Positions 9,708 to 36,191 of a stretch of DNA of 64,000 bases are shown here, piece by piece. The notes under the pieces were generated by a model, which was given only the letters and a program-made list of their open reading frames with translations, was not told the DNA's origin and searched no databases. The position numbers and the translations under genes are program-made. The stretch is taken from contig NZ_LATD01000054.1 in NCBI RefSeq assembly GCF_000981895.1, forward strand, positions 1 through 64,000, read 5' to 3'. This stretch comes from Streptomyces odonnellii. Lineage in GTDB: Bacteria; Actinomycetota; Actinomycetes; Streptomycetales; Streptomycetaceae. Position 1 is the stretch's first letter. Every line of letters starts with the position of its first letter.

Positions 9708-9993
9708 GATACTTCTGCCCTCGGTTACGGAGCCGACGAGGGAGCGGGACGGGGTGAGGCCGGTCGGGGAAGGCTCGTCAGGGTGTCGGCTGGCAGGGAC
9801 CCTAGCGGGCACCCAGGGATGTGGTCCAGACCAATCGAATGAGTGATCGCCGAATTCCGGCCATGTGCCGCGCCGGATCCGGATGCCGGCCCAGGGCCGG
9901 AAACCGTTCGCATCCGCCCGTGCGGCCGACCTGTCCGGCGGCGGCACGGGCGGAACGGAGGGAAGCGCAGGACGGCCGAAAACCGTCTCGGGC

Positions 9994-11196
9994 TCAGCGT
10001 CTCGCCGGGCCGACGCCGATGTGCACCCGGAACAGGTGGTACGGCTTGCGCCTGAGGTCGTGGCCGCTGTTGTAGGCCGCCTGGCGGTTGAGCTGGTTGG
10101 CGATCACGTACAGGTTCTGGTCGTACCCGATGGACAGGGTGTCCGGCCAGATCAGCCGGTCGTCCTGGACGACCGTCCGGAACACACCGTCCAGGTCCCG
10201 GCGGACAATGGCCTTGCGTTCGATGTCGCCGCCGTAGACACGCCCCGCCCGGTCCATCTCCAGACCGTCGGACATGCCCTTGATTCCCAGGTCGCGCACC
10301 ATGGGCTCGCTCCGCCGCCGTCCCTCGCGGCATTCGATGAGGTCGCTCGTGCGGACCGCGTACAGCTTCCGGCTGGACAGCGGGCAGAAGTACAGCCATG
10401 TGCCGTCCGGGCTGAGCGCGATCCCGTCCGCCCCGATGCCGACGGGAGTCCCGGGCGCGGCACCGGGCTTGTTGAGGAACGGTCTGCCGTCGATCACCGG
10501 TACGAAGTCGGGCTCCGGCAGGGTGAAGGGCGTGTCGTCTAGGCACCGCCACGCCGCGCCGTCGGCCAGCCGCACGATGATCAGGCCGGTGGGACGGTCG
10601 GGGGTGGCATCGGTCAGATACGCGTAGCCCCGGCTGAGGTCGAACCGCACGTCGTTGACGAAGCTGTGCGGTCCCGCGACGTCCCTGGGCAGGACGATGG
10701 TGCGCACCACCTTGTTCGTCGCGAGGTCGATGGCGACGAGCTTCGGCCCGCCGTACGGGGCGTCGGCCCACACGATACGGCCGGTGTCCACGACCCAGAG
10801 GCGCTCCGAGGCATCGACGACCACGCTCTGCACACCGAGGAAGTGGCGTGCGGGATCCGCTGCGTCGGCCTCGTTGATCTGCCGGTTCGGGTACGCGACG
10901 GCCTTTCCGTCGATGATCTCCGCCACCGAGAAGGGCACTTCGTCGCCCCAGTGCGGGAAGTTCACGAAGATCCGGCCGGAGCGCGAGATGGTGACCCCCG
11001 TGGGCATCGCGCCGTAGAAGGCGGCGACCGGCCGAAGCGCCGGACCACGCCGCGCCGCGGCGGGTCCGCGCGGCCCCGCCACGGCCCGCGGCGAGCTGAT
11101 CGCCAGCGACAGGCCCATGGCGGCGGGCAGGGCGACGATCGCGCGCCGGCTGGGTATGGCGGGTGAACCGCCCGTCTGTGCGTCGGAGTTGCGCAT
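9994..11196 (-). CDS. secreted MRJP/yellow-like beta-propeller protein (Tat)
   Basis: A 400-residue protein with a twin-arginine signal (PSRRAIVALPAAMG, residues about 15-30) and a six-bladed beta-propeller of the major royal jelly protein/yellow type: LGVQSVVVDASERLWVVDTG, NDVRFDLSRGYAYLTD and GIALSPDGTWLYFCPL mark successive blades. Bacterial members are often labelled L-dopachrome tautomerase-related or sugar lactonase-like, but catalysis is not proven. ATG at 11196 has AAGGAG ten bases upstream; the longer frame to 11679 is rejected. It stands alone, divergent from the lipase gene. Confidence 0.85.
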   Translation of the reverse strand: MRNSDAQTGGSPAIPSRRAIVALPAAMGLSLAISSPRAVAGPRGPAAARRGPALRPVAAFYGAMPTGVTISRSGRIFVNFPHWGDEVPFSVAEIIDGKAVAYPNRQINEADAADPARHFLGVQSVVVDASERLWVVDTGRIVWADAPYGGPKLVAIDLATNKVVRTIVLPRDVAGPHSFVNDVRFDLSRGYAYLTDATPDRPTGLIIVRLADGAAWRCLDDTPFTLPEPDFVPVIDGRPFLNKPGAAPGTPVGIGADGIALSPDGTWLYFCPLSSRKLYAVRTSDLIECREGRRRSEPMVRDLGIKGMSDGLEMDRAGRVYGGDIERKAIVRRDLDGVFRTVVQDDRLIWPDTLSIGYDQNLYVIANQLNRQAAYNSGHDLRRKPYHLFRVHIGVGPARR

Positions 11197-11532
11197 GATG
11201 GGGGACTCCTTCAGGAGAAGGACGGATCGAGGAGCGCCGGGCGGGCCGGTCACCTGACCGAGTGCGCCCGAGGCGGTCGCTCGCCGAGGGAATCCCGCGC
11301 GGAGGCGGACGACGCGGAGACGGAGGAATCGGGCCCGGGTTCTCGCGTCGGCTTCCGCGTGGCTGTTGTGCTCAGAGTACGGAGTTCCGCCCGTCCCGCC
11401 ACTTGTTCCAAGGCGCGGTGCGAGCGCTTCCGTACGCCGCCCGTGCGGGTGAACGGGGCCCTGGGGCGAGTCCGGAAAGTCGTAAATCATCGGTCTCGCC
11501 AATGAACGCCCGCATCTGACCGGAGGATTGCC
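11197..11532. other. intergenic region between divergent genes
   Basis: 336 bp between the MRJP-like and lipase genes. It must hold both promoters. A locally AT-richer patch just before the lipase start may be its promoter; no specific operator was recognised. Confidence 0.35.
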
Positions 11533-12351
11533 GTGCCTCTCGCCCCGATCGACCACCGGACGACCGGTTACCAGCTGTCGCACGCCTACTGGCTGGCCAA
11601 GGCCTCGGAGCTGGCCTACCGGGACAAGGACATCGCCCGAGCGGCCCTGGCCGAATGGGGGTTCGACCGGTTCCGGCATTTCGAGTCACCGCACGAGATG
11701 CCGTTCCCCCTGGACGACACCCAGGCGTACACCGCCGCCAGCGACCACATGATCATCACCGCGTTCCGCGGGACCACGCCCCAGGAGATCCGTGACTGGC
11801 TGACCGACGGCAACGCCCCGCCCGTCCCCGGCCCCGGGAACAAGGGGTTCGTCCACCACGGCTTCCACCGGGCGCTCGCCTCGGTCTACCCGGAGGTGCG
11901 CGACACCATCGAGAAGTTCCGTACGAACGGCCAGACCGTCTGGGTCACCGGCCACAGCCTGGGCGGCGCGCTCGCCATGCTCGCCGGTACCCGGCTGTAT
12001 TTCGAGGAGCCACGGATCCTGGCCGACGGCATCTACACCTACGGGCAGCCGCGTACCTGTGACCGGCTGCTGGCGGCGGCGTACAACGCGGCGCTGAAGA
12101 GCCGTACGTACCGTTTCGTCAACAACAACGACATCGTGCCGCAGGTCCCGCCGGCGCCGCTGTTCACGCATGTGGACGGCGTCAAGTACTTCGACGCGGA
12201 CGGGAAGATCCATGACCGGCTGCCGTTCGTCGATGTCCTCAGGGACCGGGTGACGGGCCGGACGGCCGATCTGTTCGCGCCCGCCTCCGACGGCATCCGC
12301 GACCACTTCATGCCCGCGTATCTGGCGAACCTTGAGAAGAACCTGGTCTGA
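11533..12351 (+). CDS. class 3 lipase family protein
   Basis: A 272-residue alpha/beta hydrolase. The nucleophile elbow GHSLGG is at residues 140-145 (Ser142), in the strand VWVTGHSLGGALAMLAG; FVNNNDIVPQVPP and DHFMPAYL supply the usual Asp and His regions of class 3 (Lipase_3, Rhizomucor-like) lipases. There is no signal peptide, so the product appears cytoplasmic. GTG start at 11533 is preceded by GGAGG. Substrate (lipid ester or other) cannot be told from sequence. Confidence 0.87.
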   Translation: MPLAPIDHRTTGYQLSHAYWLAKASELAYRDKDIARAALAEWGFDRFRHFESPHEMPFPLDDTQAYTAASDHMIITAFRGTTPQEIRDWLTDGNAPPVPGPGNKGFVHHGFHRALASVYPEVRDTIEKFRTNGQTVWVTGHSLGGALAMLAGTRLYFEEPRILADGIYTYGQPRTCDRLLAAAYNAALKSRTYRFVNNNDIVPQVPPAPLFTHVDGVKYFDADGKIHDRLPFVDVLRDRVTGRTADLFAPASDGIRDHFMPAYLANLEKNLV

Positions 12352-12439
12352 GACCCGGCTCCGAGTCCCTTGTCCGGGTCCCAGTAACGGGTCCCGGATC
12401 CCGGGCCCACGCCTGAGGGCCGGGACCGGAGCCCTTCCG

Positions 12440-19849: not shown

Positions 19850-21072
19850 TCACGTCGTGCTGCCGGGCACGGTTTCGTCCGCCCGTTCCGCCGGCCTTTC
19901 CGCCCCGGTCCGGGGCGCGGGCGGAGCGGACCGGCCGGGCACCTCGGGACCGCCCGTCCGGTACTGCTCCGAGTGCAGCGTGAACAACTTCCTGAACAGG
20001 CCGGGTCCTTGGTGCCCTTCCGCCATCAGCGCCGCGAAGTCGCCCGCCTCCACCAGCCGGCCCTGGTCCAGGACATGGATGACATCGGCCGACCGGACAC
20101 TGTGCGGCCGGTGCGTGACCAGGATCACCGTCTGCCCGTCGCCCGCGAGATCGCGGATCTGCTGGAACGCGGCGATCTCGGCCGCCGGGTCCATGCTGCT
20201 GGTCGGCTCGTCACAGATCAGCAGGCCCGCCCCGCGGTAGTACGCGCGGACCAGGGCAAGCCGCTGCCACTGCCCGCCCGACAGGTCCACCCCGCCCTCG
20301 TACCCCTTCTCGCACAGGGTGTCCCAGCCACGCGGCAGCTCGCCGACCACCTGGTGCGCGCCCGCAGCTCCGCCGTCCTTCAAGCCGTTCAAGGTCCTCG
20401 ATCTCGGACGGCCGGCTGATGGCGACATTGGCGCGGGCTGTGAACGGCCAGTGCTGGTAGTCCTGGAGCACCAGCGCCACCTGGTCGAAGACCTGATCGC
20501 GGTCCAGCTCGCGGACATCGGTCCCGTTCCAGCGGATCTGCCCCTGCGACGGCAGATACAGCCCGGCGAGCAGCTTGCTGAGCGTCGTCTTGCCACTGCC
20601 GTTGACCCCCACGAGGGCCACGATCCGGCCCCGGCGGATCGTCAGCGACACGGCGTCGAGCGCCGGAGTCTCCCGGCCGGGGTACGTGAACGACACCCGG
20701 TCGAATTCGATCAGCGCGGGCGGTCCGGGCACAGGCCTACCGCCCCTGGGGGGTGACCGCGGCGGTCACCCCGGACAGCGCCGAGGTCACCAGGTCCGTA
20801 CCGGCCTCCCGGTGCGCCGGCTTCGTCTGCTCCTGCGCGGCCCCGACGCCCATCCGGTCGAACTGCTCCAGCAGAAACGGGCCCGCGCCGTGCACCCGTA
20901 GCTCCGGGCCCGCCTTGTGGGAGATCAGCAGCTGGCGCAACTCGCTCTGCTGCCGTACGTGTTCGATCCACACCTGGATCGACTCGTAGGTACGGCGGGC
21001 GGCCCTGACCGTGCCCCAGGCCTTCGGCAAGGCCTCCTGAGCTGGCGACAACGGTTGCGGGTGCTCGGACAA
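19850..21072 (-). pseudogene. ABC exporter remnant (frameshifted ATPase, deleted membrane domain)
   Basis: The right part (20737-21072) still reads as a piece of an exporter membrane domain: HKAGPELRVHGAGPFLLEQF matches the loop between exporter helices. Most membrane helices are missing. The ATPase domain follows in another frame from about 20732: Walker A LVGVNGSGKTTLSKLL and a Q-loop VLQDYQHWPF. At about 20385 the frame shifts by one, and the rest reads in the second frame: LSGGQWQRLALVRA, Walker B LLICDEPTSSMDP and the H-loop VTHRPHSV. With the deletion plus the frameshift it cannot make a working exporter. It lies just left of the transposon. Confidence 0.75.
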
Positions 21073-21135: not shown

Positions 21136-21140
21136 GGCCC
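21136..21140. repeat. 5-bp target site duplication, left copy
   Basis: GGCCC directly before the TGTC end of the Tn7-like element; the same five bases follow the other end at 27894-27898. Confidence 0.72.
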
Positions 21141-21293
21141 TGTCCCGTCCCGTTCGACCTTGCCTATTGGGCATGGCCGTGACCTGCGGAGAGGTAATTT
21201 GCCAGGCTGCGGAAGAGGTGATTAGTCCCAGGACATGTTGCTGGCGGGGGGTGTTCTGGCGGGAACTGTCCCATTCTTTGTTGTCTGACGACA

Positions 21294-21347
21294 CCGTCCG
21301 TGGCCGATCTTCGCCAGCGTGGTCTGGCGAAGATCGGCCACGGACGG
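21294..21347. terminator. long perfect hairpin at the end of the transposon operon
   Basis: Perfect inverted repeat with 24-bp arms (21294-21317 and 21324-21347) and a 6-base loop. It begins 5 bp downstream of the stop codon of the last leftward gene, so it is most likely its terminator; there is no T-run. Confidence 0.65.
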
Positions 21348-21352
21348 GTTGG

Positions 21353-21826
21353 TCACTGTGGCGCCGGGCCGGCTTCGGCGATCTGGGATGCCAGCCGCTG
21401 TATGGCGGATCGGATGCCCTGTCCGTAGCCGTCGTCATGGAGGGCGTCGACGTGCTGCTGTGCCTGGGACAGGTGGGTGCGGGCCTGTTCGTCGTCTCCG
21501 AGCTTGTGGAAGTCCGCCGCGAGGTTGAGGTGCAGAGAGGGATAGAACCCGCGGATCGCTAACGAGGAGTCGTGCTGCTTGGCCCGGTCGTCGGTCACCG
21601 AACCCGCGGCTTCCAGGGCTCGCAGGTCCCACGAGAGTTCGTCTTGCGGGTCTTCTTGCAGGTCGGCCATGTAATGGGCGAGGACACAGCGGTGGAAGGG
21701 GTCGCCGTCCGTGCCGATGTCCTCCCAGATCTCGGAGAAGCGGTGCCGGGCGCCGTCGGTATCGCCTGCCTGTTGCAGGCCCATGGCTTCCTCGATGCGT
21801 TTCATCGTCTTGTCTTCGGTCGTCAC
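21353..21826 (-). CDS. small TPR-like helical protein, last gene of the transposon
   Basis: A 157-residue protein without a recognised named domain. It is mostly helical; MKRIEEAMGLQQAGDTDGARHRFSEIWEDIG and FHKLGDDEQARTHLSQAQQHVDAL look like tetratricopeptide-type helix pairs. GTG at 21826 has AGGAGG five bases upstream. It is the only intact gene of the element and the last of its operon, 79 bp after the XRE-ImmA/IrrE gene. It could be a partner of that regulator or cargo; tetratricopeptide proteins often accompany XRE regulators in actinobacteria. Confidence 0.68.
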   Translation of the reverse strand: MTTEDKTMKRIEEAMGLQQAGDTDGARHRFSEIWEDIGTDGDPFHRCVLAHYMADLQEDPQDELSWDLRALEAAGSVTDDRAKQHDSSLAIRGFYPSLHLNLAADFHKLGDDEQARTHLSQAQQHVDALHDDGYGQGIRSAIQRLASQIAEAGPAPQ

Positions 21827-21904
21827 GTGTGCCTCCTGCCGCTGGTGAGTAGCGCGAGGAAGCGTAGGGGCAGCCACTGACATCGCCCTTCCCGCGCTGT
21901 GATG

Positions 21905-22869
21905 TCACAGGGCGGTGCCTTCTGCCACGGACATGCCCTGGGCCCGGACGAACTCGATGACCTTGAGCAGCAGGCGGCTTGTCTCGGGTGTTCTGTCCGG
22001 GCTCTCGTTGACGGTCGTGTGTGCGAGCTGCTTGATGACGTGGCGGTATGGCCATTCCGGCATCAGGTCCAAGTCGTGGAGGCGGTGGGCGAGGGCTGTG
22101 GCGGGGACACCCCAGGTGCCCTTGGCGGTCAGGAGCCGCTCGCTCGCCGCGTTGCGGAGCATCGCCGCGAGGATCCCGGTGCGGGGCATCAGGAAGGCTG
22201 AGGCGAACCTCGCTGCGGCGGCATGGGACTCCCGGCTTCCCGGTTGGCGGGGAGCAGGACGAGCTGTCCGAGTTCGTGTGCGAGGTCGAGCCGGGCCTGT
22301 TCGCGGGGCAGATCCGGCGGGAGGAAGACGAACGGTGTGCCGTGGTGGACGACCGAGAACGGGCCGGCGTCCGCGCAGTCCGCGGGCAGGGTGAAGACCC
22401 GCACTCCGTTGACTTCGAGTGCGTGCACCAGGTTGGCGATCGGGGCGTCACCGAGACGCCAGTGGGCGCGTGTGACCTCGGCGGCCTCTTCCGGGGCCAT
22501 CCCGGGACAGGACGGGATGTTCGGCAGGGGCATGCGGAGCCGGGCCTCCAGCCAGGTGTTCAGCGCGGCGGTGAGGGTGGCGACGGCGACAGCACTGTTA
22601 CGCTTGATCGCGCTGAGTTTCGAGCGTCGCCGGAAGCTCACGGCTTCGTGCGGCAGCTCGGCGGGCGGCGGGGCGCCGAGGAAGACGGGGGTGACGCCGA
22701 GCGCACCGGCGAGTGCCGCGAGCGACTTCTGGGACGGTGTCTTCCTGCGGTTCTCGAACGCGGTGAGGCTGGCGGTCGTCAGCTCGGCGGCGCGGGCGAG
22801 AGCGGCCAGCGTCATCCGTCGGCGGTGCCGGGCGAGGAGGAGCCGTTCGGGGGTGAACACGGGCGTCAC
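21905..22869 (-). pseudogene. XRE regulator with ImmA/IrrE peptidase domain, frameshifted
   Basis: GTG at 22869 follows GGAGGAACC and overlaps the TniQ stop as GTGA. Residues about 5-65 are an XRE helix-turn-helix (RMTLAALARAAELTTASLTAFENRRKTPS). The C-terminal half is an ImmA/IrrE-type domain whose metal motif reads HELGQ instead of HELGH, so one zinc ligand is replaced. About 10 residues later a one-base loss in a G run near 22230 breaks the frame; the expected continuation HAAAARFASAFLMPRTGIL is in the next frame and ends at 21905. The whole would be about 320 residues. XRE-ImmA proteins cut partner repressors to induce mobile elements; this one looks inactive. Confidence 0.75.
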
Positions 22870-23770
22870 GGTTCCTCCGCCAGGGGATCGGGAAGAGCAC
22901 GGCGGCGGGCCTGGTGCTGGATCCAGCGGACGAGCGGGTCGTTGTCGACGCTCTCGTCGTATTGGTATCCGGGGACGGATCGCGCACGGACCTCGGCGAT
23001 GAAGCGCCGCATGTCGGCCTCCTCGCCCGTGAAGGGCAGTTCCCGGAGGGTGGCGGAGGCCAGGAGCCCGGTGAGGGCGACGATCTCGGGATAGGCGCTG
23101 GCGATGATCCTCGGATCGTTGTCGTAGGCGGACCAGTCGGGGCCGCAGAGCGCCGCCATCCGGGTGCGCCAGCCCTCCTTGAAGGCGTCGTTCTCCCACC
23201 ATCCCCAGCCCAGATCGGTGGCTTCACGCATCGCGAGGGTGACCGCCGCCCAGCCGTGACGGCGGACGAGGCGGTGATGGCGGTGCTGGGCGCGGACGAC
23301 GTCCGGGACGGTGTGCAGGTCGAACTGTTCGTCGCGGTCGTCGGTCCAGCGCCGGTGACGCAGGCAGAGCTTGGTGCTGGAGGGGACCCAGTGCCATGCG
23401 GGGCCGAAGCTCTCGGTGACGCCCTTAGCCATCACGCAGTGTGTGCAGGCCGCCTGGAGCTTCCAGCCGTTGCTGGCCAGGCGGAGGCTGGCGGGTTCGA
23501 GACGCTCGGTGTATCATGCTGGCCGCAGATCGGGGATTGCCCGCAGGAGCCGTTCGCGGGGCTGTCCGGACAGGTCGCAGAGGGCATCCAGCAGTGCCGA
23601 CGGTTCGGGCAGGATCCGGTCGGGTCGTTCATGTGCTCGTGCAGGAGCTTGTGCGGGATGCGGTTGGCCTTGGCGAGCCGCTTGAAGTACGAGTCCCAGG
23701 ACTCCCGGTGCAGCGGCGCGACGGTGCAGGGAAGCGGCGGCAGCCGGCGCGGGGCCAGGACGTCGGTCAT
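22866..23770 (-). pseudogene. tniQ: TniQ family transposition protein, two frameshifts
   Basis: ATG at 23770 overlaps the TniB stop. The first frame gives LPCTVAPLHRESWDSYFKRLA, the N-terminal TniQ signature. Near 23640 it must shift to give SALLDALCDLSGQPRERLLRAIPDL, and near 23522 shift again to enter the long third segment, which carries a zinc ribbon (CTHC, then CLRHRRW about 25 residues later) and ends at 22866. TniQ/TnsD proteins choose the target site. With two shifts it is very probably non-functional unless both reflect base-calling errors. Confidence 0.75.
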
Positions 23771-24805
23771 GCCGCGTCTCCCAGACCGTCGTCGGTTTCC
23801 CGGAGCGGGCGTGGATTGTCGGACTGGGTGTTGTGGTCGACCGAGATCGTGTGCAGCAGGCGGCGGGTGATCTGCTCGCTGCCATCGGCGATCGCACTGA
23901 TCGCGGCGGCGCGGATCAGGTGGGACAGGCTGCTGATGCTGCCGCCGGTGCGGGTACTTCGCCTGCTGGGACAGTGTGCCGGGCTCGTGGTGGTGGAGGC
24001 GGAGGGCCTGCTCCATGGTCGCGATCATCGAGCGCCATTCGGTGCCGCAGGGGAAGTTCGCGGTGTGCTGCATGACACAGCGGGCGGCGATCTGCTTACC
24101 GCGGACCCCGGTGAACAGCCCCTCCCGCTCGACGTTAATGCCGGCATAGACGAAAGTCGCCGGGATGTGCTCGGCGAAGTACTTGAGATGGTCGGACATG
24201 TCCTTGCCGTTGGACGTGCCCATCTGGATGTTGTGGATCTTGTCGACCAGGACCAGGTCGCAGCGGGCGTCGATCAGGATCTCGCAGACCGCGTCGGCGA
24301 TGTCCATCTCGTTGTGACGGCTCTCGAGTGGCAGCCCGAGGAAGTGCGCGAAGCGGGTGGCCAGCTTGCGCGGGGATCCGTTGGGCGGGGCGGAGACGTA
24401 GACGACCGGGATGCGGTCGTGGTCGGGATAGCGTTGGCGTACTCGCAGCTCGTGGACCCGGCCGAGCTGCTTGATGGCGGTGGACTTCCCCGTCGCCCAG
24501 GGGCCGGAGACGATCAAACCCCGGCGGGCGCTGATCTCCCGCCGGTTCACCAGCGTCAGCAGCCTGCCTTGGTGCAGGATTTCCCGGATGGTCGGGGTCT
24601 CCACGATGATCAGCTCGGAGTGGTAGTCGACGCGTGCCTCGTCGTACTCATCCCGCTCTGGTCCGGACAGGGACAGCCAGTCGGTCCCGGCCAGCAGCTC
24701 GAACTCCGGCGGGTCCTCGTTCACGAAGCAATGCCAGGTCGGCAGGGTCGTCGTCGGCATGCGCCGCTTGTCAGGCATGCCGAACTGCTCGGGAACTACC
24801 ACCAC
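23767..24805 (-). pseudogene. tniB: TniB/TnsC-like AAA ATPase, one frameshift near the C-terminus
   Basis: About 345 residues. The AAA domain has Walker A SGPWATGKST near residue 100 and a Walker B strand LVLVDKIHN (normally DE/DD after the hydrophobic strand, here DK, so the catalytic acidic residue may be altered). Similarity continues through FVYAGINVEREGLF. Near 23950 the frame breaks; the correct continuation RTGGSISSLSHLIRAAAI reads in the next frame to the stop at 23767, which overlaps the TniQ start as ATGA. It would be the ATP-dependent regulator linking TniQ and the transposase. Confidence 0.76.
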
Positions 24806-24868
24806 TTCCTTGCCTCCTTGCGGGCGTCGAAGACACGCAGCGGCACGACGTCGGCAGCCGCCTCGCCG

Positions 24869-26890
24869 TCATCGGCCTCTTCCTCCGCCGCCCCGCTCTC
24901 GGGCCGAGAGGCCGGAAGAGGGCGGGGTAGGCCGCGGCCAGGACGGTTCCGCGGCGGCACGGGTGCGGGCAGCGGTCCGCGCGGAGCGACGGTTCCGGGA
25001 CCGCTTGCGGGCCGGCGCCGTGTCTTTCCCGTCTGCCGGGCCGGCGCCCGCGCGTTGAAGCAGGTCGTCCGCCGCCTCGGCGATCGCCTCCTCGGTCACC
25101 GATTTGCCCCGTTGTTCACGCAAGTCCCGGGACACGTGATCCCAGGCCACCTCCCCGAACGGGACCGGCTGCGACGACAACAGCCGCCAGGGGACCGTGA
25201 TCCAGCTGTCCTCGCGGTGATCGTGCAGCCAGACAAGGCGGATGTCGTAGGGGTCGTGGCGTACTTCCCAGCGGTCCTTGTGATCGGCCAGCCCGGACCT
25301 CTCCCTCCGCAGCGTGTCGAGTCCGTCGCAGTCGTAGATCCGGTTGCCGATCTTGAGCCCGTAGGAATTCACCGCCCTCCAGCGGGTCGGCAACAACCTC
25401 AGGTAGTCCTCGACCGACAGCGCCAGCGGCAGGTAGCCGGCCGTCTCCACGAGCGCGGCGTACTTCTCGTTCGGCGAGAACGCCCGGCCCGGAGCGAGCG
25501 GATCCCGCAGACCGTCGTGCGGCCGGTTCTGCCACTTGGCAGTGATCCACTCCTCCAGCAGTTCCTGCAACTGCGGCAGCGATTACAGCGGTTCGTCCTC
25601 GGTCCGGCGGCCGCGGTGCTCGGCAGAGCGGCCGGTATGGCCCGAGACGAACTGCGCGAACATCGTGGCCACGGAGCCCAGCGTGCGCTCGATGGAGGCT
25701 TGTGCGTCGGCGTCCTGGGCGGCGCATGGATCACCTCGGTCCCGAACGCGTCGCAGGCCATGTGGAAGTTCCTCGACAAGCACGCCTTGCCGCCGTCCAC
25801 CACGATCGCTTCCGGGATGACCAGCGGGACCGAGGCCGCGTCCCGCAGCCGCTCATCCAAAGGCAGAAGCCGTGGTAGGGCAGCACCGACCGCTCCAGGC
25901 GAAGAGCCTCCGACCGGCCCGGAGGCATCGGAGCCGGAGTCACCGAACGGGCCAGCAGCAAAGCCGCGTCGACCGACTTCGTCGTCGGCCGCAGCACCGC
26001 CGCGGTGACACTGCGCGTGGCGACGTCGACCAGGCCGGTCGGCTCGACCCTCCCGACCACGCCCTTGTCCAGGCGCACCAGCACATCGAACGGGGTGGAG
26101 TCGATCTCCATCAGCTCGCCCGGCCGGCAGACCGTCGCCTGGCCGAAGACGCCCTCGGGCTGATTCGCCAGGGACCGGCGGGTCCGGGCAGACCCCGTGG
26201 TGTGCCGTCCGCGTTCCAGCCGCTGGAACAGCCGGTAGAACGCCGACCGCTTCGGCACCGCCTCCGGCCCGTACTTGTCCTTGACGACCTTGCTGACGCG
26301 CTGGAAGTAGTAGCTGACCGTCCGGGGCGAGTCGTCCGCGGCCTGGCTCATCAACTGCTGCAACTCATCCACGACTTCCGGCCGCAGCCGCCCGTGCACC
26401 GGCCGACGCGGCGCGTGCCGCCCATCGACCATCCCCACGATGCCCCGCACCTGATGACGGCGCCGCCGCCAGCGCACCGTATGCGCACTGACCGGCCGCC
26501 CCGTCTCCGCACTCAACTCGGCTGCCTTGGCCGCCTCACGCTCGGCCAGCGTCCGCGTGGCCGGGTCGTACTCCGGGCGCGGCAGGGCGCCCTGCGGGGC
26601 GTCCGGAGGCAGCCCCGTCCGCAACTCGACCATGTGCCGGTGCCACCACAACGCGTCCTCGGCCTGGTCCTGCGGGACGTGGCCCAGCAGCCCAGCAGGC
26701 ATCAGCCTCCGGTTGCCGGAACCCAGCACTCGAAACCCGGCGACATCATCAGCGTCGGCAGATGCATCGCGCTGGTGCCGCCGGCCTCGTCGGCGAGCCG
26801 TACCAACATCCCCGACAGCCCCGCGACCGTCTGCACTTTGCCCTCGAACCGGACCCGGTCGCCCGGACGGACGACCAGCGGGTTGAGCAT
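24869..26890 (-). pseudogene. tniA: TniA/TnsB-like DDE transposase, three frameshifts and one stop
   Basis: ATG at 26890 overlaps the TnsA stop (TGATG). About 670 residues if restored. Order of parts: N-terminal MLNPLVVRPGDRVRF, helix-turn-helix region, then the DDE core with D in ELMEIDSTPFDVLV, D in AIVVDGGKAC and E in ASIERTLGSV, then a Mu-type C-terminal domain (WQNRPHDGLRDPL, KWRAVNSYGLKIG-like) and a basic tail. The frame shifts near 26735, 25868 and 25705, and an in-frame TAA sits at 25583-25585 where a Trp codon is expected. The three catalytic residues are still readable, so decay is recent. Confidence 0.8.
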
Positions 26891-27642
26891 CACCACGTCC
26901 CGGCCTCCGCCTGCGACCGGCTGACCATGCAGTCCAGGCCCAGGACCCGCGACTCCAGATCGGTGCCCAACAGCCCCTGCCAGAGCAGGTGATAGAGCAC
27001 CGGCAGCACCGCGATTCGGTCCCCGACCGCCTCCGCTCTGGCCAGCAGCGGCCCCGGCTCCGCGAACACCTCCAGCAACCGCTTGGCCGTCTCCTCGCGC
27101 CAGTTGCGTGGATGGCCGTAGCCCCGCAGCCAGCGCCGTGGCCAGCAGGACCGGGTCGATCGCCCCCACCCGCCGAAACGACCAACCGGTCAGGTCACAG
27201 ACCCGCTCGGTCGCCGCGAACGCCGAGCATCGTCCGGCTCGATCTGGTCATCAGGGCGGACATCGACCACCACTCCGGTGCCGTCGGCAAGCCGGGCGAA
27301 GAAGTCGGGGACGTGCCCCAGGCGCCCACGGCGACCCGGCCAGAACAGCCGGTACGGCTGAGACACCAGTGCCGTCACCCGAGGATCGAAGTCCATCAGC
27401 ATCGCGTGATCACGCTCCAGCCGGGACTCGCACGCAAGTGCCTTCCGCACGGTCGTCGACCAGTAGTCACGGGTCACCGACCGCTGCCCGTCGTACGTAC
27501 GCACCTTCCGCACCGGCGGCAGTGACTCGAACCTCACTGTCCAGGCCGCCGACAGAGCCTCACGACGGCGCACACGCTCCCCATCGACGTACTCGACCTC
27601 GAAAACCCCGTGCCCGACGTCAGCGAACGCCTCGACAGCCAC
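26890..27642 (-). pseudogene. TnsA-like transposase endonuclease subunit, two frameshifts
   Basis: GTG at 27642 has GGAGGGG upstream. The first segment holds the nuclease core: ACESRLERDHAMLMDFDP (Glu), GHVPDFFARLADG (Asp) and VVVDVRP (the position of the catalytic Lys reads Arg). Near 27220 the frame must shift to give FAATERVCDLTGWSFRRVG, and near 27120 shift again to give HPRNWREETAKRLLEVFAEPGPLL, ending at 26890. In Tn7-type elements TnsA cuts the 5' ends so that transposition is by cut and paste. Here the gene is broken. Confidence 0.73.
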
Positions 27643-27893
27643 CCGGCCCCCTCCACAGAGCGAACGACACAAGCCCTGATCACGAGAGAGCCACACAGCC
27701 CGCCAGCCAGCAACGGATCAGCGAGCAAACCGCCCCCGAGAGCGAAAATCAGGCAGGACAAACCACGGCGAGCGACAAGACACCACGGGATACCGAGCCC
27801 CGGTGCACGCTGCGAGCAACAACATGCCCCGGGACGAACAGCGAACTGAACAACTTCACCCGGGACAGCGACAAGATGACGAGGGACAGGACA

Positions 27894-27898
27894 GGCCC
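27894..27898. repeat. 5-bp target site duplication, right copy
   Basis: GGCCC directly after the right TGTC end of the element; identical to 21136-21140. Confidence 0.72.
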
Positions 27899-28821: not shown

Positions 28822-29721
28822 TCAGGCCAGGGCCGTCCCCTGCCGGAGCAGCAGCGCCACATCGACCCCCGCGACGAGAATCGCCGCGAGAAAGGGGACC
28901 CTCGGCCGGTGACGGCCCATCAGCGACCCGCCGGCCGCCATGACCAGGGCCGCGCCCACGGCGACCGCGCTCAGCGGCCCCGGCCTGCCGAGCGCCAGCA
29001 GGACCGTGGCCGCCACCAGCGGGACCGGCAGCAGCAGCCGCACCACGGACGGCCCCAGCCGCTGCGGCCAGCCCCGCACCCCCAGCGCCAGATCGGAGCC
29101 GATGTCGGGCAGCACATTTCCGAGATGCGCCCCGACCCCCAGCAGCGCGGCGGCGGTGACGACCCACCAGACGGGCCGGGGCTGCCCGGGCAGACCGAGC
29201 GTCACAAACGCGGGCAGCGAGGCGAACCCCACCGCGTACGGCAGCCAGGACAGGACGGTGGACTTGAGCCGGAGGTTGTACGACCAGGCCGCCGCGACCC
29301 CGGCGAGATGCACCGTACCGGCGAGCCGCCCGTACGCGAGGGACAGCGGTACGCACAGCGCCAGCGCGACCAGCGCGGCCGTGCGTACGGCCCGCGCGCT
29401 CACGGCGCCGCCCACCACGGGCTTGGCGCTCCGGCCCGCCGCGGTGTCGCGGGCCGCGTCGACCGCGTCATTGCTCCAGCCCACCGACAACTGCCCCGCC
29501 AGCACGGCGGCAGCCACCAGCGCGCATCCGGCGGCGTCCTGCCCGGCGGCCACCGCGAGCCCGGTGATCAGCAGGGTCACGGCGGCGGTGGGACCGGGGT
29601 GGCACGCCCCGAGCAGGGCGGCCGTCCAGCGCGGCCACCGTACCGGCGCGGCGTCGGCGCGCGACCGCCCGCCGGGAAGGTCCACTTCCTCGGCCGTGTC
29701 CACCCCGTCGATGCCGTCCAC
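28822..29721 (-). CDS. UbiA family prenyltransferase
   Basis: A polytopic membrane protein of about 299 residues with seven to nine helices. The first aspartate-rich prenyl-diphosphate site is clear: WSNDAVDAARD (N/D-x-x-D-x-x-x-D). A second acidic segment, LPDIGSDLALGVRG, follows in the family position. It transfers an isoprenoid chain to an aromatic or quinone acceptor. GTG at 29721 is chosen because upstream residues are only Arg-rich; its ribosome site is weak. It is divergent from a type III PKS operon that makes phenolic acceptors, which invites, but does not prove, a shared pathway. Confidence 0.82.
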   Translation of the reverse strand: MDGIDGVDTAEEVDLPGGRSRADAAPVRWPRWTAALLGACHPGPTAAVTLLITGLAVAAGQDAAGCALVAAAVLAGQLSVGWSNDAVDAARDTAAGRSAKPVVGGAVSARAVRTAALVALALCVPLSLAYGRLAGTVHLAGVAAAWSYNLRLKSTVLSWLPYAVGFASLPAFVTLGLPGQPRPVWWVVTAAALLGVGAHLGNVLPDIGSDLALGVRGWPQRLGPSVVRLLLPVPLVAATVLLALGRPGPLSAVAVGAALVMAAGGSLMGRHRPRVPFLAAILVAGVDVALLLRQGTALA

Positions 29722-29875
29722 GCGCCCATCGTAGGCAGCACGCGGCAGGCGGCGCTCCGCGCGTCGTCGTCGGCACCGCCGTGATCGCGCGGCCGTACAG
29801 GCGACTTCGTGTGTGACACGCCGTCGCCGGGGCAGGGATTGCACGTCAGTCACCATCCTCGACCCCGGACCGCAG

Positions 29876-30928
29876 ATGACATACATCGCAGCCGTCCATG
29901 GAGCCCTGGCTCCGCATCAGTATGCCCAGCAGGACCTTACGGACATGGTGGCCGAGGTGTGTCTGCCCGAGGACGCCGACCGCAGGGTGCTGGACAGGCT
30001 GCACCGTGCCGCGCGCGTGTCCACCCGTCACACCGCCCTGCCGCTCGACCGGTACGCCGGGCTCAAGAACTTCGGCGAGGTCAACGACGCGTTCATCGCG
30101 GCGGCCGTACCGCTGGGCGCCGAGGCGGTCGAAGGGGCGCTGGACGCGGCGGGTCTCTCCCCGCGCGATGTCGATCTGCTGATGTTCACCTCGGTGACGG
30201 GCATCGCCGCGCCCTCGGTGGACGCGCGTCTGGTGGGACGGCTCGGTCTGCGGCCCGATGTCAGACGGGTGCCGGTCTTCGGACTGGGCTGTGTCGCGGG
30301 AGCGGCGGGCATCGCGCGGCTGCACGACTATCTGCTCGGGCGGCCCGACGACGTGGCGGTCCTGCTCTCGGTCGAGCTGTGCTCGCTCACCTTCCAGCGA
30401 AACGATCCGTCGCCCGCCAATCTCGTGGCGTCCGGGCTCTTCGGGGACGGCGCGGCGGCCGTCGTCGCCTGTGGCGCCCGGCGCCGGGCCACCGGGCCCG
30501 CCGTCATCGACACCCGCAGCCGGATCTATCCGGACACCGAGGAGGTGATGGGATGGGACATCTCGGCCTCCGGTTTCCGGATCGTCCTGGACGCGAGCGT
30601 TCCCGACCTCGTACGCAAGAACCTCCCGGAGGAGGTCGACGGATTCCTCGCCGGACACGGTCTGAAGCGCGAGGACATCACCGCGTGGGTGTGCCATCCC
30701 GGCGGGCCCAGGGTGCTGGAAGCGGTCGAGGAGGCGCTCGAACTGCCGGCCGGGGCACTGGACATGACCTGGCGTTCACTGGCGGCGGTGGGCAATCTGT
30801 CCTCGTCCTCCGTGCTGCATGTGCTGCGCGACACCCTCGCGGAACGGCCACCGCCGGGCGGGACCGCCGGACTGATGCTCGCCATGGGACCGGGATTCTG
30901 CTCCGAACTGGTCCTGCTCCGGTGGTAG
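29876..30928 (+). CDS. type III polyketide synthase (alkylresorcinol synthase-like, SrsA-like)
   Basis: A 350-residue chalcone synthase-fold enzyme with the full catalytic triad: C139 in VFGLGCVAGAAG, H274 in VCHPGGPRVLEA and N307 in AAVGNLSSSSV. It condenses a fatty acyl starter with malonyl-type extenders and cyclises the chain. The order type III PKS, then an isoprenylcysteine-methyltransferase-type protein, then a flavoprotein matches srsABC of Streptomyces griseus, which makes phenolic lipids; this assignment is by domain order, not by alignment. ATG at 29876 begins MTYIAAVHGAL. The frame is open to 29813. Confidence 0.85.
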   Translation: MTYIAAVHGALAPHQYAQQDLTDMVAEVCLPEDADRRVLDRLHRAARVSTRHTALPLDRYAGLKNFGEVNDAFIAAAVPLGAEAVEGALDAAGLSPRDVDLLMFTSVTGIAAPSVDARLVGRLGLRPDVRRVPVFGLGCVAGAAGIARLHDYLLGRPDDVAVLLSVELCSLTFQRNDPSPANLVASGLFGDGAAAVVACGARRRATGPAVIDTRSRIYPDTEEVMGWDISASGFRIVLDASVPDLVRKNLPEEVDGFLAGHGLKREDITAWVCHPGGPRVLEAVEEALELPAGALDMTWRSLAAVGNLSSSSVLHVLRDTLAERPPPGGTAGLMLAMGPGFCSELVLLRW

Positions 30929-30980
30929 GACCGACCGCACCGGAGGCGGACCGGGTTGGTGGAGAGGGACGGAAAGAGAC

Positions 30981-31505
30981 ATGATCTGGTACGGCGTGCT
31001 GGTGCTGGCCGTCGGCGCGGAGCGGGTCGCCGAACTCGTCGTCGCCCGCCGCCACACCCGCTGGAGCCTGGAGCGCGGCGCGGTCGAGCGGGGGAGCGGG
31101 CACTATCCGCCGATGGTCGTGCTGCACACGGCGCTGCTGCTCGGCTGCCTGGCCGAAGTATGGCTGGGCGAGCGCCCGTTCACCCCGGCGCTCGGCTGGA
31201 CCATGGTCGCCGTGGTGGTGGCCGCGCAGGCGCTGCGCTGGTGGTGCATCCGTACGCTGGGGCCGCGCTGGAACACCCGGGTGCTGGTCGTGCCCGGGCT
31301 GCCGCTGGTCACGGGCGGCCCGTACCGGCTGCTGCGGCACCCCAACTATGTGGCGGTGGTGGCCGAGGGCCTGGCGCTGCCCCTGGTGCACGGCGCCTGG
31401 CTCACTGCGCTGCTGTTCACCGTGCTCAACGCCGTCCTGCTGACCGTCCGGATACGGTGCGAGAACCGCGCCCTGGAGGCAGCGGCCGCCGGTGCGCTGC
31501 CGTGA
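30981..31505 (+). CDS. ICMT-type membrane methyltransferase (SrsB-like)
   Basis: A 174-residue membrane protein of the isoprenylcysteine carboxyl methyltransferase fold. It has about four or five helices; the SAM region is GGPYRLLRHPNYVAVVAEG, with RHPNY strongly conserved in the family, and a late Glu/Asn pair CENRAL. In srs-type operons this enzyme O-methylates the alkylresorcinol product. ATG at 30981 lies 52 bp after the PKS gene and its stop overlaps the start of the flavoprotein gene by 4 bp (GTGA). Confidence 0.82.
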   Translation: MIWYGVLVLAVGAERVAELVVARRHTRWSLERGAVERGSGHYPPMVVLHTALLLGCLAEVWLGERPFTPALGWTMVAVVVAAQALRWWCIRTLGPRWNTRVLVVPGLPLVTGGPYRLLRHPNYVAVVAEGLALPLVHGAWLTALLFTVLNAVLLTVRIRCENRALEAAAAGALP

Positions 31506-32518
31506 TCGACGTACTGGTGGTGGGCGGCGGACCCGCCGGACTCGCCACGGCCGTTCACGCCGCGCTGGCCGGCCTTGAGGCGGTGGTGATCGAACCGCGC
31601 GCCACCCCCGTCGACAAGGCCTGCGGCGAAGGTGTGATGCCCAGCGGCGTACGCGCGCTCACCGCCCTCGGTCTCGACCTCCCGCGCGGGCATCCGCTGC
31701 GCGGTATCCGGTACGTACGCGGAAACCACCGGGCCGAGGCGCCGTTCGACCACGGAACCGGGCTGGGGGTACGGCGCACGGACCTGCACGCGGCGCTGGC
31801 GCGGCGGGCGGAGGAGACCGGGGTACGGATGCTGACCGGCCGTGTCGGCGACGTCGTCCAGAGCGCGGACTCGGTAACCGCCGGCGGGCTGCGGGCACGC
31901 TGGCTGGTGGCCGCGGACGGGCTGCACTCGCCCGTACGGCGCGGTCTCGGCCTGGGCCTGCCCGACCGCGGACCCCGGCGCTACGGCCAGCGGCGTCACT
32001 ACCGTATGAAGCCCTGGACGGACTTCGTCGAGGTGCACTGGTCGTCGGCGGGGGAGGCGTATGTGACACCGGTGGCCGGCGACCTGGTCGGGGTGGCCGT
32101 GCTCAGCCCGGTGAGACGCGGCTACGACGCCCATCTCGAAGGCTTCCCCGGACTGCTGTCCCTGCTGGACGGCGAGCCCGCGAACGCCGTACGCGGAGCG
32201 GGCCCCCTGCGCCAGCGGGTACGCGGCAGGACCGCGGGCCGGGTGCTGCTGGTGGGCGACGCGGCGGGCTATGTCGACGCGCTCACCGGCGAGGGCATCG
32301 CGCTCGCCCTGGCATCGGCCGAGGCCGCCGTACGGTGTCTGCGGGCGGGACGGCCGCAGGAGTACGAGGGCGCCTGGCGCAGACTCTCCAGGCGGCACCG
32401 GCTGCTGACCGAGGGGCTGCTCCGGGTCAGCGGCCACGCGGCCGGGGCCCGGCTGATCGTACCGGCGGCGGCCCGGATGCCGTCGCTGTTCGCGGCGGCG
32501 GTACGCGCCCTGCAGTGA
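31502..32518 (+). CDS. FAD-dependent monooxygenase/reductase (SrsC-like)
   Basis: A 338-residue flavoprotein of the geranylgeranyl reductase/PHBH group. The dinucleotide fold VLVVGGGPAGLATAVHAAL is at residues about 4-22, followed by DKACGEGVMPSG, an ADGLHSPVRR motif and the second FAD motif VLLVGDAAGYVDALTGEGI. In srs-type operons this enzyme hydroxylates the phenolic lipid toward a quinone. GTG at 31502 overlaps the stop of the methyltransferase gene; the longer open frame starts inside the previous gene and is rejected. Confidence 0.84.
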   Translation: MIDVLVVGGGPAGLATAVHAALAGLEAVVIEPRATPVDKACGEGVMPSGVRALTALGLDLPRGHPLRGIRYVRGNHRAEAPFDHGTGLGVRRTDLHAALARRAEETGVRMLTGRVGDVVQSADSVTAGGLRARWLVAADGLHSPVRRGLGLGLPDRGPRRYGQRRHYRMKPWTDFVEVHWSSAGEAYVTPVAGDLVGVAVLSPVRRGYDAHLEGFPGLLSLLDGEPANAVRGAGPLRQRVRGRTAGRVLLVGDAAGYVDALTGEGIALALASAEAAVRCLRAGRPQEYEGAWRRLSRRHRLLTEGLLRVSGHAAGARLIVPAAARMPSLFAAAVRALQ

Positions 32519-32549
32519 CGGCGCCGCCACAGGGCCGGGGCCGGCCGGC

Positions 32550-33800
32550 TCAGGGAGACAGGCCGTTCGCCGGGTCCGGCGGGGTCATCGCCCGTACCGA
32601 ATGCGGCAGCACATGTGCGATGTAGTCCTCGATGGTCGCCTCCAGGCCCACGTCGCGCCCCGCGCGCTCCGACAGATACCAGCGGTGCTCCAGCACCTCG
32701 TGGTAGATCTGCGCCGCGTCCATCTCACCGCGCAGCTCCAGCGGTACGGCCCGTACCGTCGGCCGGAAGACATCGCGGACCCAGCGGTGCGCCAGCACCT
32801 CGGGGCGGGCGCCCAGCGGATCGCCCGGCGCGTAGTCGTCCTCGCCGGCCATCCAGCTCTCCAGATCGTTGAGCAGGCGCCGCGCCTGGTTCTCCTCGGC
32901 GTCCAGACCGGTCAGCCGCAGCAACTGCCGCTGATGGTGGCCGGCGTCCACCACCTTGGGCAGAAACGTCACCGTGTCGCCCATCGGGGAGCGCTCGATC
33001 TGCATCTCCGCCACATCGAAGCCCAGATCGTTGAGGCGCCGGATCCTGCGGTCGATGTAGTGCCGCTTGTCCACCGGATACACCGACTCGCGCGTCACCT
33101 CGTGCCACAGGTCCTCGTACCGCCGGACGATCGCCGCGCCGAACGGCACCGGGTCCACCGACGGATGGAGCGCGCCCGAGGCCTCCAGGTCCATCAGCTC
33201 CCCGGCGATGTTCACCCGGGCCAGCTCGATGTCGTACTCCCGCTGGCCCCGGCTCAGGTTCGGCTGGATCTGCCCGGTCTCGGCGTCCACCAGATACGCG
33301 GCGTACGCCCCGGCGTCCCGGCGGAAGAGGGCGTTGGACAGTGAGCAGTCGCCCCACGCGAACCCGGCGAGATGCAGCCGTACGAGCAGCACCGCCAGCG
33401 CGTCCATGAGCCGCTTGACGGTCGAGGGCCGCATCGTCGACTCGAACATCGAACGGTAGGGGAGCGACCCCTTGAGATGGCGGGTGATCAACGCGGGCTC
33501 CAGCGGCTCGCCGTCCGCGTCCACCCGTCCCGTCACCACCGCCAGCGCGTCCACGGCGGGAATGCCGAGCCGGTGCAGATCGCGCAGCAGCCCGAACTCC
33601 CTGACCGCGCCCCGCTCGGATATCTCCTTGACCGCCACCACCTCGGGTCCGGCGGACGCGAAGCGCACCACATGGCGGGAGATACCACGGGGGAGCGCCA
33701 CGAGGCAGTCGTCGGGCCACTGGTCGAGAGGTGTGTTCCACGGCAGATCGAGGAGCACGGCCGGCTGCTCGGGATTGGTCGCGCTGATCTGGAGCGCCAT
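32550..33800 (-). CDS. DUF4032 family kinase-like protein
   Basis: A 416-residue soluble protein. The N-terminal 250 residues look like a degenerate kinase fold: VVAVKEISERGAVREF resembles the lysine strand, WGDCSLSNALFRRDAG a catalytic-loop-like segment and YLVDAETGQ the metal-binding DxD-like position. The C-terminal part, from about residue 260 to 405, fits DUF4032. Function is unknown; related folds phosphorylate lipopolysaccharide or small molecules. ATG at 33800 has AGGAGG four bases upstream. It stands alone between the phenolic-lipid operon and an MFS-TetR pair. Confidence 0.83.
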   Translation of the reverse strand: MALQISATNPEQPAVLLDLPWNTPLDQWPDDCLVALPRGISRHVVRFASAGPEVVAVKEISERGAVREFGLLRDLHRLGIPAVDALAVVTGRVDADGEPLEPALITRHLKGSLPYRSMFESTMRPSTVKRLMDALAVLLVRLHLAGFAWGDCSLSNALFRRDAGAYAAYLVDAETGQIQPNLSRGQREYDIELARVNIAGELMDLEASGALHPSVDPVPFGAAIVRRYEDLWHEVTRESVYPVDKRHYIDRRIRRLNDLGFDVAEMQIERSPMGDTVTFLPKVVDAGHHQRQLLRLTGLDAEENQARRLLNDLESWMAGEDDYAPGDPLGARPEVLAHRWVRDVFRPTVRAVPLELRGEMDAAQIYHEVLEHRWYLSERAGRDVGLEATIEDYIAHVLPHSVRAMTPPDPANGLSP

Positions 33801-34011
33801 CGTGCCTCCTACGACGGTCGTCGGGCGGGCACCGGATCCGGAACCGCCCACCACAGTGTGCCGGTACGCGTACGGGCCCCTGGACGGGGCCCGGTGGGTG
33901 GCTGGGGTGTACACGCGTTTAACCTGAGGGGGGTGAACAGTTGTGCACCCCCGCACTCCTCGTGACTCCTCTTGATCCCTCACCCTCGATTCCTCACCCG
34001 TACGGAGAGAG

Positions 34012-35484
34012 ATGACCGAAGCGCGAGAAGCGATATCCGGGCCCGGCGCCCCGCACCACCCCCGGTTCCTCGTCGCCGTCCTGGCGTTCTGCGGGGTGGT
34101 GGTGGCGGTGATGCAGACGCTGGTCGTACCGCTCCTGCCGCACATCCCCGCCCTCACCGGAGCCACCCCGACCGCCGCGAGCTGGCTGGTCACCGTCACC
34201 CTGCTCACCGGTGCCATCTGCACCCCCGTACTCGGGCGTGTCGGCGACATGTACGGCAAGCGCAGGGTGCTCCTCGCGTCCCTCGGCGTGCTGGTCGCCG
34301 GGTCCGTGCTGTGCGCGGCCAGCTCGCAGATAGGAGTGCTGATCGCCGGGCGGGCGCTCCAGGGCGCCGCGCTGGCCGTCGTGCCGCTGGGCATCAGCAT
34401 CATGCGCGACGAACTGGCGCTCGAGCGGGTGCTGCCCTCGGTCGCGCTGATGAGTTCGACCCTGGGCATCGGCGCGGCCGTCGGACTGCCGGTCGCCGCG
34501 CTCGTCGTGGAGCACTCCGACTGGCACACCATGTTCTGGGCCTCGGCCGGGCTCGGAGTGCTCGACATCGCACTGGTGCTGCTGTGCGTACCGGAGTCGC
34601 CGCTGCGCACCCGGGGCCGCTTCGACACCCTGGGCGTTCTCGGGCTCTCCGTGGCGCTGGTCTGTCTGCTGCTGGCGGTCACCCAGGGCGGCGGATGGGG
34701 CTGGACATCCGCCCGTACCCTCGGACTGCTCGCGCTGTCGCTGGTGACCGCAGTGCTCTGGGGCTGGTACGAGCTGCGCTTCACCACCCCCATGGTCGAC
34801 CTGCGGGTCTCGGCGCGGCCCGCGGTGCTGCTGACCAATGTGGCCGCGCTGCTCATCGGCTTCGCCTTCTACGCCAACTCCCTGGCCACCGCGCAGATGG
34901 TGCAGGAACCGACGAGCACGGGTTACGGACTGGGCGCGTCCATCGTGGTGAGCGGGCTCTGTCTGCTGCCCGGCGGGCTGACGATGGTCGCGCTGTCCCC
35001 GGTGTCGGCCCGGATCTCCGCCGCGTACGGCCCGAGGACCACGCTGGCGCTCGCCTCGGCCGTGATGGTGGCCGGCTATGTGGTCCGTTTCTTCACAAGT
35101 CACCAGCTCTGGACGATCGTCCTCGGCGCGACAGTCGTCGCCGCGGGCACCGCCATCGCCTACTCGGCGCTGCCCGCGCTGGTGATGCGCGCCGTGCCGG
35201 TGAGCGAGACCGGTGCGGCCAACGGCCTCAACACCCTGATGCGGTCGGTGGGTCAGGCGTTCTGCAGCGCCGCCGTCGCCGCCGTACTCACCCGTGTCAC
35301 CTTCGAGGCCGGCGGGCGCACGGCGCCCACCCTCCACGCGTATCTGCTGGTCTTCCTGATCGCGGGCGGCGCGGCACTGCTCGCACTGGCCGTCACGCTG
35401 TGTCTGCCGGCGCAGCGGATCACCGTCCCGGGTACCGTCGGGCGGGACGACCGGACGGCGTCGCTCGCCCAGGAGGGCACATGA
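34012..35484 (+). CDS. MFS transporter, DHA2-type (14 helices)
   Basis: A 490-residue drug:proton antiporter-type permease. Hydropathy suggests fourteen helices. Motif A of the major facilitator superfamily is GRVGDMYGKRRVLLAS after the second helix, and the region ALQGAALAVVPLG follows as in EmrB/QacA members. It exports unknown compounds in exchange for protons. The stop overlaps the start of the downstream TetR gene (ATGA), so the pump and its likely repressor are cotranscribed. ATG at 34012 has GGAGAG upstream. Confidence 0.87.
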   Translation: MTEAREAISGPGAPHHPRFLVAVLAFCGVVVAVMQTLVVPLLPHIPALTGATPTAASWLVTVTLLTGAICTPVLGRVGDMYGKRRVLLASLGVLVAGSVLCAASSQIGVLIAGRALQGAALAVVPLGISIMRDELALERVLPSVALMSSTLGIGAAVGLPVAALVVEHSDWHTMFWASAGLGVLDIALVLLCVPESPLRTRGRFDTLGVLGLSVALVCLLLAVTQGGGWGWTSARTLGLLALSLVTAVLWGWYELRFTTPMVDLRVSARPAVLLTNVAALLIGFAFYANSLATAQMVQEPTSTGYGLGASIVVSGLCLLPGGLTMVALSPVSARISAAYGPRTTLALASAVMVAGYVVRFFTSHQLWTIVLGATVVAAGTAIAYSALPALVMRAVPVSETGAANGLNTLMRSVGQAFCSAAVAAVLTRVTFEAGGRTAPTLHAYLLVFLIAGGAALLALAVTLCLPAQRITVPGTVGRDDRTASLAQEGT

Positions 35485-36191
35485 ACGGGCAGGCAGCGGG
35501 CGGGACCGCCGACGACGGCGGCTCACCGAGCGGATCTTCCACGGGCGCGGCACCGGAGGCGGCGGGGGGCCCGGAGGCGGGCACCGGACCCGAGGCGGGC
35601 ACCGGGCCTGAGGTCGGCAGCGGACCCGGGACCGGCAGCGGACCCGAGGCCGGCACCGGGCGCGCCGCGATTCTGCGGGCCGCCCGGCGCGCCTTCGCCT
35701 TCCGTCCGTACGCCGAGGTGACCCTGCGCGGGATCGCCGCCGAGGCCGGGGTGAGCGCCTCGCTCATCGTCAAGCATTTCAGCACCAAGGAACGGCTGTT
35801 CAACACCGTCGCCGACTTCGGGCCCGCGGCCGACCTGCTGTTCGCGGCGCCGCCGGACTCGCTCGGCCGCCATCTCGTGCTGACCGTGGTCCGCAGCCGT
35901 CGCGAGCAGCAGGCGGACCCACTGCTCCGCGTCGTCTTCGCCCTCGGCAACGACGACGAGCGCGTCCTGCTGCGCGAACGCTTCGGCGAGCAGATCACCC
36001 GGCGGCTGGCGGCTCTGCTGCCCGGCCGCGAACGGGCCCTGCGCGCCGAGCTGGTCGTCGGTCAGCTTCTCGGTCTCGGCGCCACGCTCAGCCTGCACCG
36101 CGAGGGCGCCAACGCACGGGCCACACCGGAGCAACTGGCCGCGCTGTACGGCCCGTCGCTCCAGCGACTGATCAACGGCTCCACTGACTGA
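35481..36191 (+). CDS. TetR family regulator with repetitive N-terminal extension
   Basis: A 236-residue regulator. The first 60 residues are low complexity, built from repeats like GPEAGT and GPGTGS; then the TetR DNA-binding domain follows (AAILRAARRAFAFRPYAEVTLRGIA, then a helix-turn-helix SASLIVKHFSTKERLF). The C-terminal half is a variable ligand-binding domain. It overlaps the pump gene by 4 bp and probably represses it. The repeat-rich N-terminus is unusual and may be an artefact of choosing the first start; an internal start near residue 60 would give a normal-size regulator, but the ATGA overlap with GGAGG upstream supports the long form. Confidence 0.82.
   Translation: MNGQAAGGTADDGGSPSGSSTGAAPEAAGGPEAGTGPEAGTGPEVGSGPGTGSGPEAGTGRAAILRAARRAFAFRPYAEVTLRGIAAEAGVSASLIVKHFSTKERLFNTVADFGPAADLLFAAPPDSLGRHLVLTVVRSRREQQADPLLRVVFALGNDDERVLLRERFGEQITRRLAALLPGRERALRAELVVGQLLGLGATLSLHREGANARATPEQLAALYGPSLQRLINGSTD

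Follow-up and report, generated by a model that had tools for sequence, protein, structure and literature searches.

A well-bounded element in Streptomyces odonnellii that is very probably a decayed Tn7-like transposon

A cluster of transposition-like genes in Streptomyces odonnellii raises the question of whether the genes belong to a single mobile element with recognizable ends, and of whether that element could still move. Read directly from the window, the 64-kb stretch of DNA analyzed here, the element is a transposon of 6753 bp at 21141-27893 (unstranded) that begins with TGTCCCGTCCC from 21141 and finishes with GGGACAGGACA, whose last base is 27893. The sequence TGTCCNGTCCC has one match per strand in the window, exactly at these two ends, and the assembly (8.28 Mb in 648 contigs) contains the left-end 165 bp just once. 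A target-site duplication, GGCCC, is read directly at 21136-21140 on the left and at 27894-27898 on the right, both copies likewise unstranded. The boundaries and the duplication of the window element are demonstrated: a sequence-only reading had described inward TGTCC-Y-GTCCC termini with GGCCC on both sides, precisely as we see them, and the 6753-bp limits that it drew are borne out by independent copies and by the empty sites of two relatives.

The whole element gave matches in 285 of 295 genus genomes, many of the matches listed being short or 65-70% identical; the 154-bp right end matched eight of the 295, the window's own genome among them, and in four of the seven others (G256, G166, G165, and G082) the match extends to the terminal base. 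A protein search of genome contigs confirmed five loci, including L022 of S. laculatispora; of five relatives with names, four belong to Streptomyces and one to Kitasatospora. Both ends are present in four other copies, namely L022 (8657 bp, flanked by matching GCTGA), L028 in G166 (4944 bp, matching GACCA), L030 in G082 (9756-12438, 2683 bp, matching GGCTG), and L027 in G256 (3390-8777, 5388 bp, flanked by GCTGA and GTCGG, which do not match), so that a 5-bp duplication accompanies the window element and three of the four relatives with both ends. The left flank of L027 terminates GGGGGCTGA and its right flank is GTCGGGGGCTGA; from these flank sequences, a displaced longer repeat in place of a 5-bp duplication is possible. 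The right end alone was detected in L031 (G165), and none of this end type was found in L023, despite open frames there for all four genes (tnsA, tnsB, tnsC, and tniQ).

The identities of the genes inside the window element are established, all of them on the minus strand. The DDE transposase gene tnsB (tniA) occupies 24799-26900 and switches frame near 24920, 25694, 25872, and 26730 when read against L023, L025, L027, and L028; its pieces are 78-90% identical to the TnsB of L028. The TnsB of L023 carries a Mu-transpos_C match of 23.4 bits (cut-off 21.7), with rve below cut-off, and matches Tn6677 TnsB among solved structures (E 3.2e-8). The AAA+ gene tnsC (tniB), at 23770-24805 and broken near 23950, scores 58.2 bits for TniB against a cut-off of 22.4, and HTH/Peptidase_M78 likewise exceeds its Pfam cut-off in the window's ORFs; the TnsC of L022 matches VchTnsC among solved structures (E 1.3e-6). 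The target-protein gene tniQ, of the TniQ/TnsD kind, lies at 22866-23773, with its frame broken near 23600-23624, and its pieces align to the TniQ of both L022 and L023 at 53-59% identity, the L023 protein matching the Pfam family at 31.2 bits (cut-off 27) and that of L022 falling just below at 26.0. The endonuclease gene tnsA, at 26893-27651, loses its frame near 27225 and regains it near 27140; its pieces align with those of relatives, among which L023 matches NF033179 (TnsA_like_Actin) at 279.8 bits (cut-off 110). Several of the relatives' Pfam matches fall below cut-off, those to Pfam TnsA among them, and comparison with solved structures gave nothing meaningful for the TniQ (best E 0.34) or the TnsA (best E 0.79) of L023. 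In TnsA a VD-V/C-R motif is conserved, placing arginine in all 20 aligned relatives and in the window piece at the active-site position that we take to be occupied by lysine in TnsA. A second tnsB/tnsC-like pair, 35-36% identical to the L023 and L022 queries, is present elsewhere in the window's own genome (G000:C66:16906-19383).

All four genes had been named in the sequence-only reading, which did not report frameshifts in tnsA, tnsB, tnsC, tniQ, and the XRE-ImmA gene. Relative to the proteins of relatives, frame changes fall at the positions given above in tnsA, tnsB, and tnsC, near 23610 in tniQ, and near 22220 in XRE-ImmA. Over tnsA-tnsB and the right end, DNA gaps that are not a multiple of three make up 11 of 13 in the alignment with L027 and 9 of 9 with L028, several of them at positions common to both alignments. 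Frame segmentation flagged direct switches at 23951, inside the element, and at 8508 and 20391, outside it, and nowhere else, the remaining breaks in the element appearing as short gaps; because only one switch inside the element was flagged in this way, the case for decay rests on the protein and DNA alignments.

Could the element instead be intact and functional, its frameshifts being sequencing or assembly errors? The assembly is a 648-contig draft and most of each protein is still legible in pieces, as such an account would have it. Against it, the breaks strike tnsA, tnsB, tnsC, tniQ, and XRE-ImmA within 6.75 kb, whereas the right flank, aligned to G028 (L075) over ~8.7 kb at 86-88% identity, shows no break within a gene farther than ~65 bp from a segment end. 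In that control, 22 of 25 gaps are not multiples of three, and all gaps lie between genes or within ~65 bp of the end of a coding segment; it covers the right flank against G028, and only a minority of flanking genes was aligned individually. Moreover, 23 unbroken coding segments of at least 900 bp lie outside the element and none inside, where the longest is 840 bp; tnsB alone is 2160 bp long in L023. We regard sequencing or assembly error as improbable, and the alignments show what reads as a decayed relic with five genes frameshifted.

The relatives that share its ends are damaged as well. In L022 the frames of tnsA, tnsB, and XRE-ImmA are split, and an IS1380 copy has inserted; tnsC and tniQ were not detected in L027 or L028, of which the former has a split tnsB and the latter a tnsB with stops near its end; and in L030 no transposition gene was recognized. 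The search for intact copies by way of the ends, which had been proposed along with the boundaries, turned up four copies sharing those ends, and in none of them are the transposition genes complete and open. As this holds for all five bounded copies, the window element included, present mobility would need help in trans. No helper of the same family was found for L030, the best TnsB in that genome being 41-43% identical to the query.

With regard to classification, we hold with high confidence that the window element is a Streptomyces transposon of the Tn7-like (TnsABC+TniQ) kind, now decayed, whose TnsA is of the actinobacterial type, and the earlier assignment to the Tn7 family is supported by gene content, by the independent copies, and by the empty sites of two relatives. 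A Tn5053/Tn402-type (TniABQR) element would also have a TnsC matching the TniB family and a target protein matching TniQ, as is the case here. Yet that type is marked by a resolvase and the lack of tnsA, whereas this family has a tnsA gene, recognized by the NF033179 match in L023, and no resolvase appears among the ten element ORFs scanned, which did not include all small ORFs; we consider this assignment very unlikely. The TnsA of L023 belongs with the NCBIfam subfamily NF033179, a score taken from that protein and not from the broken window gene.

The Tn7-like transposon that we prefer has clear parallels. Tn7 of Escherichia coli has three TnsB sites at its left end and four at its right, a 5-bp target duplication, and a long TnsD protein. 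The elements described here share with it the tnsA-tnsB-tnsC order followed by a target gene of the TniQ family, the 3+4 sites, and the 5-bp duplication; they differ from it in that the TniQ proteins of the relatives are ~300-420 amino acids in length, that no tnsE was recognized, and that arginine stands at the presumed TnsA lysine. Among titles and abstract openings on Tn7-like, TniA, TniB, or TniQ elements in Streptomyces or Actinobacteria, none describes this family or insertion at padR or acnA. Benler 2021 (PMC8649781) reports 6,549 Tn7-like transposons delimited by arrays of sites, a clade 2 that is dominated by Actinobacteria and without an experimentally characterized member, and ImmA among the cargo, in 295 transposons. 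The combination of tnsB with tnsC, tniQ, and tnsA, the inward site arrays at both ends, and the ImmA cargo are the same here, whereas the median lengths given there are 14-29 kb and the window copy, decayed, measures 6.75 kb; the word "Streptomyces" is absent from the main text. Tn7-like elements with defined boundaries, a clade made up largely of Actinobacteria, and cargo that includes ImmA have therefore already been published, and the window element is one more of that kind, well bounded and dead, with clade 2 as a possible place for it.

Arrays of predicted transposase sites are present at both ends. An 18-bp motif, GTCCCN8TTGTY, read inward with at most one mismatch and derived from these same ends, identifies three sites at 21147, 21225, and 21268 in the left end (21141-21285, plus strand) and four at 27774, 27818, 27849, and 27870 in the right end (27774-27893, minus strand). 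All four exact matches in the window lie inside the ends, and with one mismatch there are 14 matches, of which seven fall in the ends and the other seven outside them. Shuffling the ends by dinucleotides gave a mean of 0.118 and a maximum of two inward sites in 1000 trials, compared with the seven observed. Because the motif was drawn from the window ends, the fixed positions of the sites in relatives are the stronger support: right-end sites stand at 7, 28, 59, and 102-103 in all five bounded copies, and left-end sites at 7, 84-85, and 126-128 in four of the five, L027 having no middle site at up to one mismatch. The arrays are established, and their layout is as expected for putative TnsB sites.

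Empty sites were sought by joining the flanks of each element over one copy of the duplication and matching them to chosen loci of relatives. For L022, an unbroken site exists in G204 (L078, which overlaps L108), where CAACCTTC-GCTGA-GACAGGTCA is identical and the 5-mer single; the L028 site is also spanned in G204, but the sequence there is GACCT. Of 11 loci retrieved for L030 (L155-L165), 8 span its site without a break, the best being that of G057 (L155; 87.7% over 748 columns, with a single GGCTG), and GGCTG is retained in three of the eight spanning loci (L155, L156, and L157). For the window copy, no spanning match was obtained with its left flank against 295 genus genomes, with its right flank against 100 relatives and the 295 genus genomes, or with its joined flanks against the loci chosen for this comparison, and the former adjacency of its two flanks thus lacks independent support. 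One candidate, G028, looked promising, with 86% identity at the right flank and a 46-bp left match, but was ruled out since its contig breaks off within the right flank, while the left match belongs to a different contig and has other genes next to it. That the true ends lie elsewhere and the apparent boundaries are coincidental, as a duplication of just 5 bp in GC-rich DNA and the missing empty site of the window copy might allow, is extremely improbable given identical terminal bases in relatives with unrelated flanks and the empty sites of L022 and L030.

Between the demonstrated ends, the window element carries little besides its transposition genes. The sequence-only reading had listed as cargo an XRE-ImmA/IrrE gene and a small helical protein. 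Both ORFs are present, the former an XRE HTH plus ImmA/IrrE (Peptidase_M78) gene at 21905-22872 on the minus strand, identified by Pfam and relatives and broken near 22200-22240; the latter, a 176-amino-acid ORF at 21353-21883, also on the minus strand, offers nothing firmer than weak TPR matches below Pfam cut-offs. An unstranded inverted repeat of 32 nt with a 6-nt loop (21286-21355) at the 3' end of this cargo gene is terminator-like by position only. DNA related to the TPR-like ORF occurs in many other genus genomes, and far from tns genes in the two that were checked (G007 and G256). Among loci longer than 8 kb, the window's own locus, L022, and L028 were the only ones to yield XRE-ImmA; because two relatives have the gene at a matching place, its status as mere cargo is less clear. 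The left-end slot varies among copies, holding the weakly matched TPR-like ORF in the window, a glyoxalase-like protein in L022 with a near-identical ORF in L028, an M10-like protease and a DUF6281 protein in L027, and TetR, SnoaL-like, and NmrA-like genes in L030. L030 is a 2.7-kb element with both end arrays, a 5-bp duplication, and empty-site relatives, in which no transposition gene is recognized.

The window copy has an ABC-gene fragment on one side and a dienelactone hydrolase gene on the other, and so does not lie at padR, acnA, an Rce1-like gene, or the gene for an HTH regulator. The ABC transporter gene (19940-21030) seems to be without its front part, and many of its listed permease and ATPase profile matches start mid-profile; it has a frame break near 20390, and its similarity to relatives ends ~110 bp before the insertion. 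To the right of the element, a UbiA-type prenyltransferase gene adjoins a type III polyketide synthase-like gene (28825-30919), and G028 matches the window at 86% identity over 28893-35513. An insertion linked to tRNA genes was set aside, as neither the window nor any of eleven loci yielded a tRNA.

On sequence-specific homing the copies point both ways: the close relatives L022 and L028 lie beside padR, and the window element, L027, and L030 do not. L022 and L028 are directly upstream of a PadR gene (PF03551), with right flanks 97% identical, and the left flank of L022 matches the uninterrupted padR locus of G070 (L081) up to 117 bp from the insertion, where extra DNA may be the remnant of another element. 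A padR gene falls within the stretch of 11 of 50 loci examined, a set in which some were picked for known padR proximity and a few are duplicate or overlapping. In the 46 loci with a tnsA position (that of L025 being assumed), the gene beside the tnsA-side end is padR in 9, an HTH regulator in 8, acnA in 6 (assigned by eye from likeness to the aconitase gene of L030), Rce1-like in 4, and another gene in 19, counts that do not amount to a rate. A close downstream padR, faced by the tnsA-side end, is seen in L022, L028, L102-L107, and L120, from several Tn7-like lineages, and padR lies on the opposite side in L108 and L112. Among other Streptomyces Tn7-like lineages, HTH regulators neighbor L033, L034, L128, and L130-L134; acnA neighbors L109, L110, L116, L118, L121, and L126; and an Rce1-like protease gene neighbors L108, L112, L124, and L125. 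Tentatively, and with slightly more doubt than confidence, we propose that the Tn7-like lineages of Streptomyces may form a diverse set, each homing to its own conserved chromosomal gene (padR, HTH regulator, acnA, or Rce1-like), and that the family of the window element may spread partly as cargo carriers reduced to the 3+4 arrays, which would depend on a transposase supplied in trans.

A history for the window element can be outlined along these lines. In an active phase, TnsB would have occupied the end sites, three on the left and four on the right, TnsA and TnsB would have excised the element by what we infer to be a cut-and-paste route, and TnsC and TniQ would have selected the target. 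Insertion with a 5-bp stagger would then have produced the GGCCC duplication, after which the transposition genes would have been lost to frameshifts while the ends and the duplication persisted, and the ends could perhaps still be mobilized in trans. Activity of the family as a whole is putative, as all five copies bounded at both ends fall short of a complete set of open genes.

For a Streptomyces Tn7-like family, our findings fix the ends to the base, propose a motif for the transposase sites, and supply empty sites. The lineage-specific neighbor genes, if they hold up, would be places for natural integration in a genus of industrial use.
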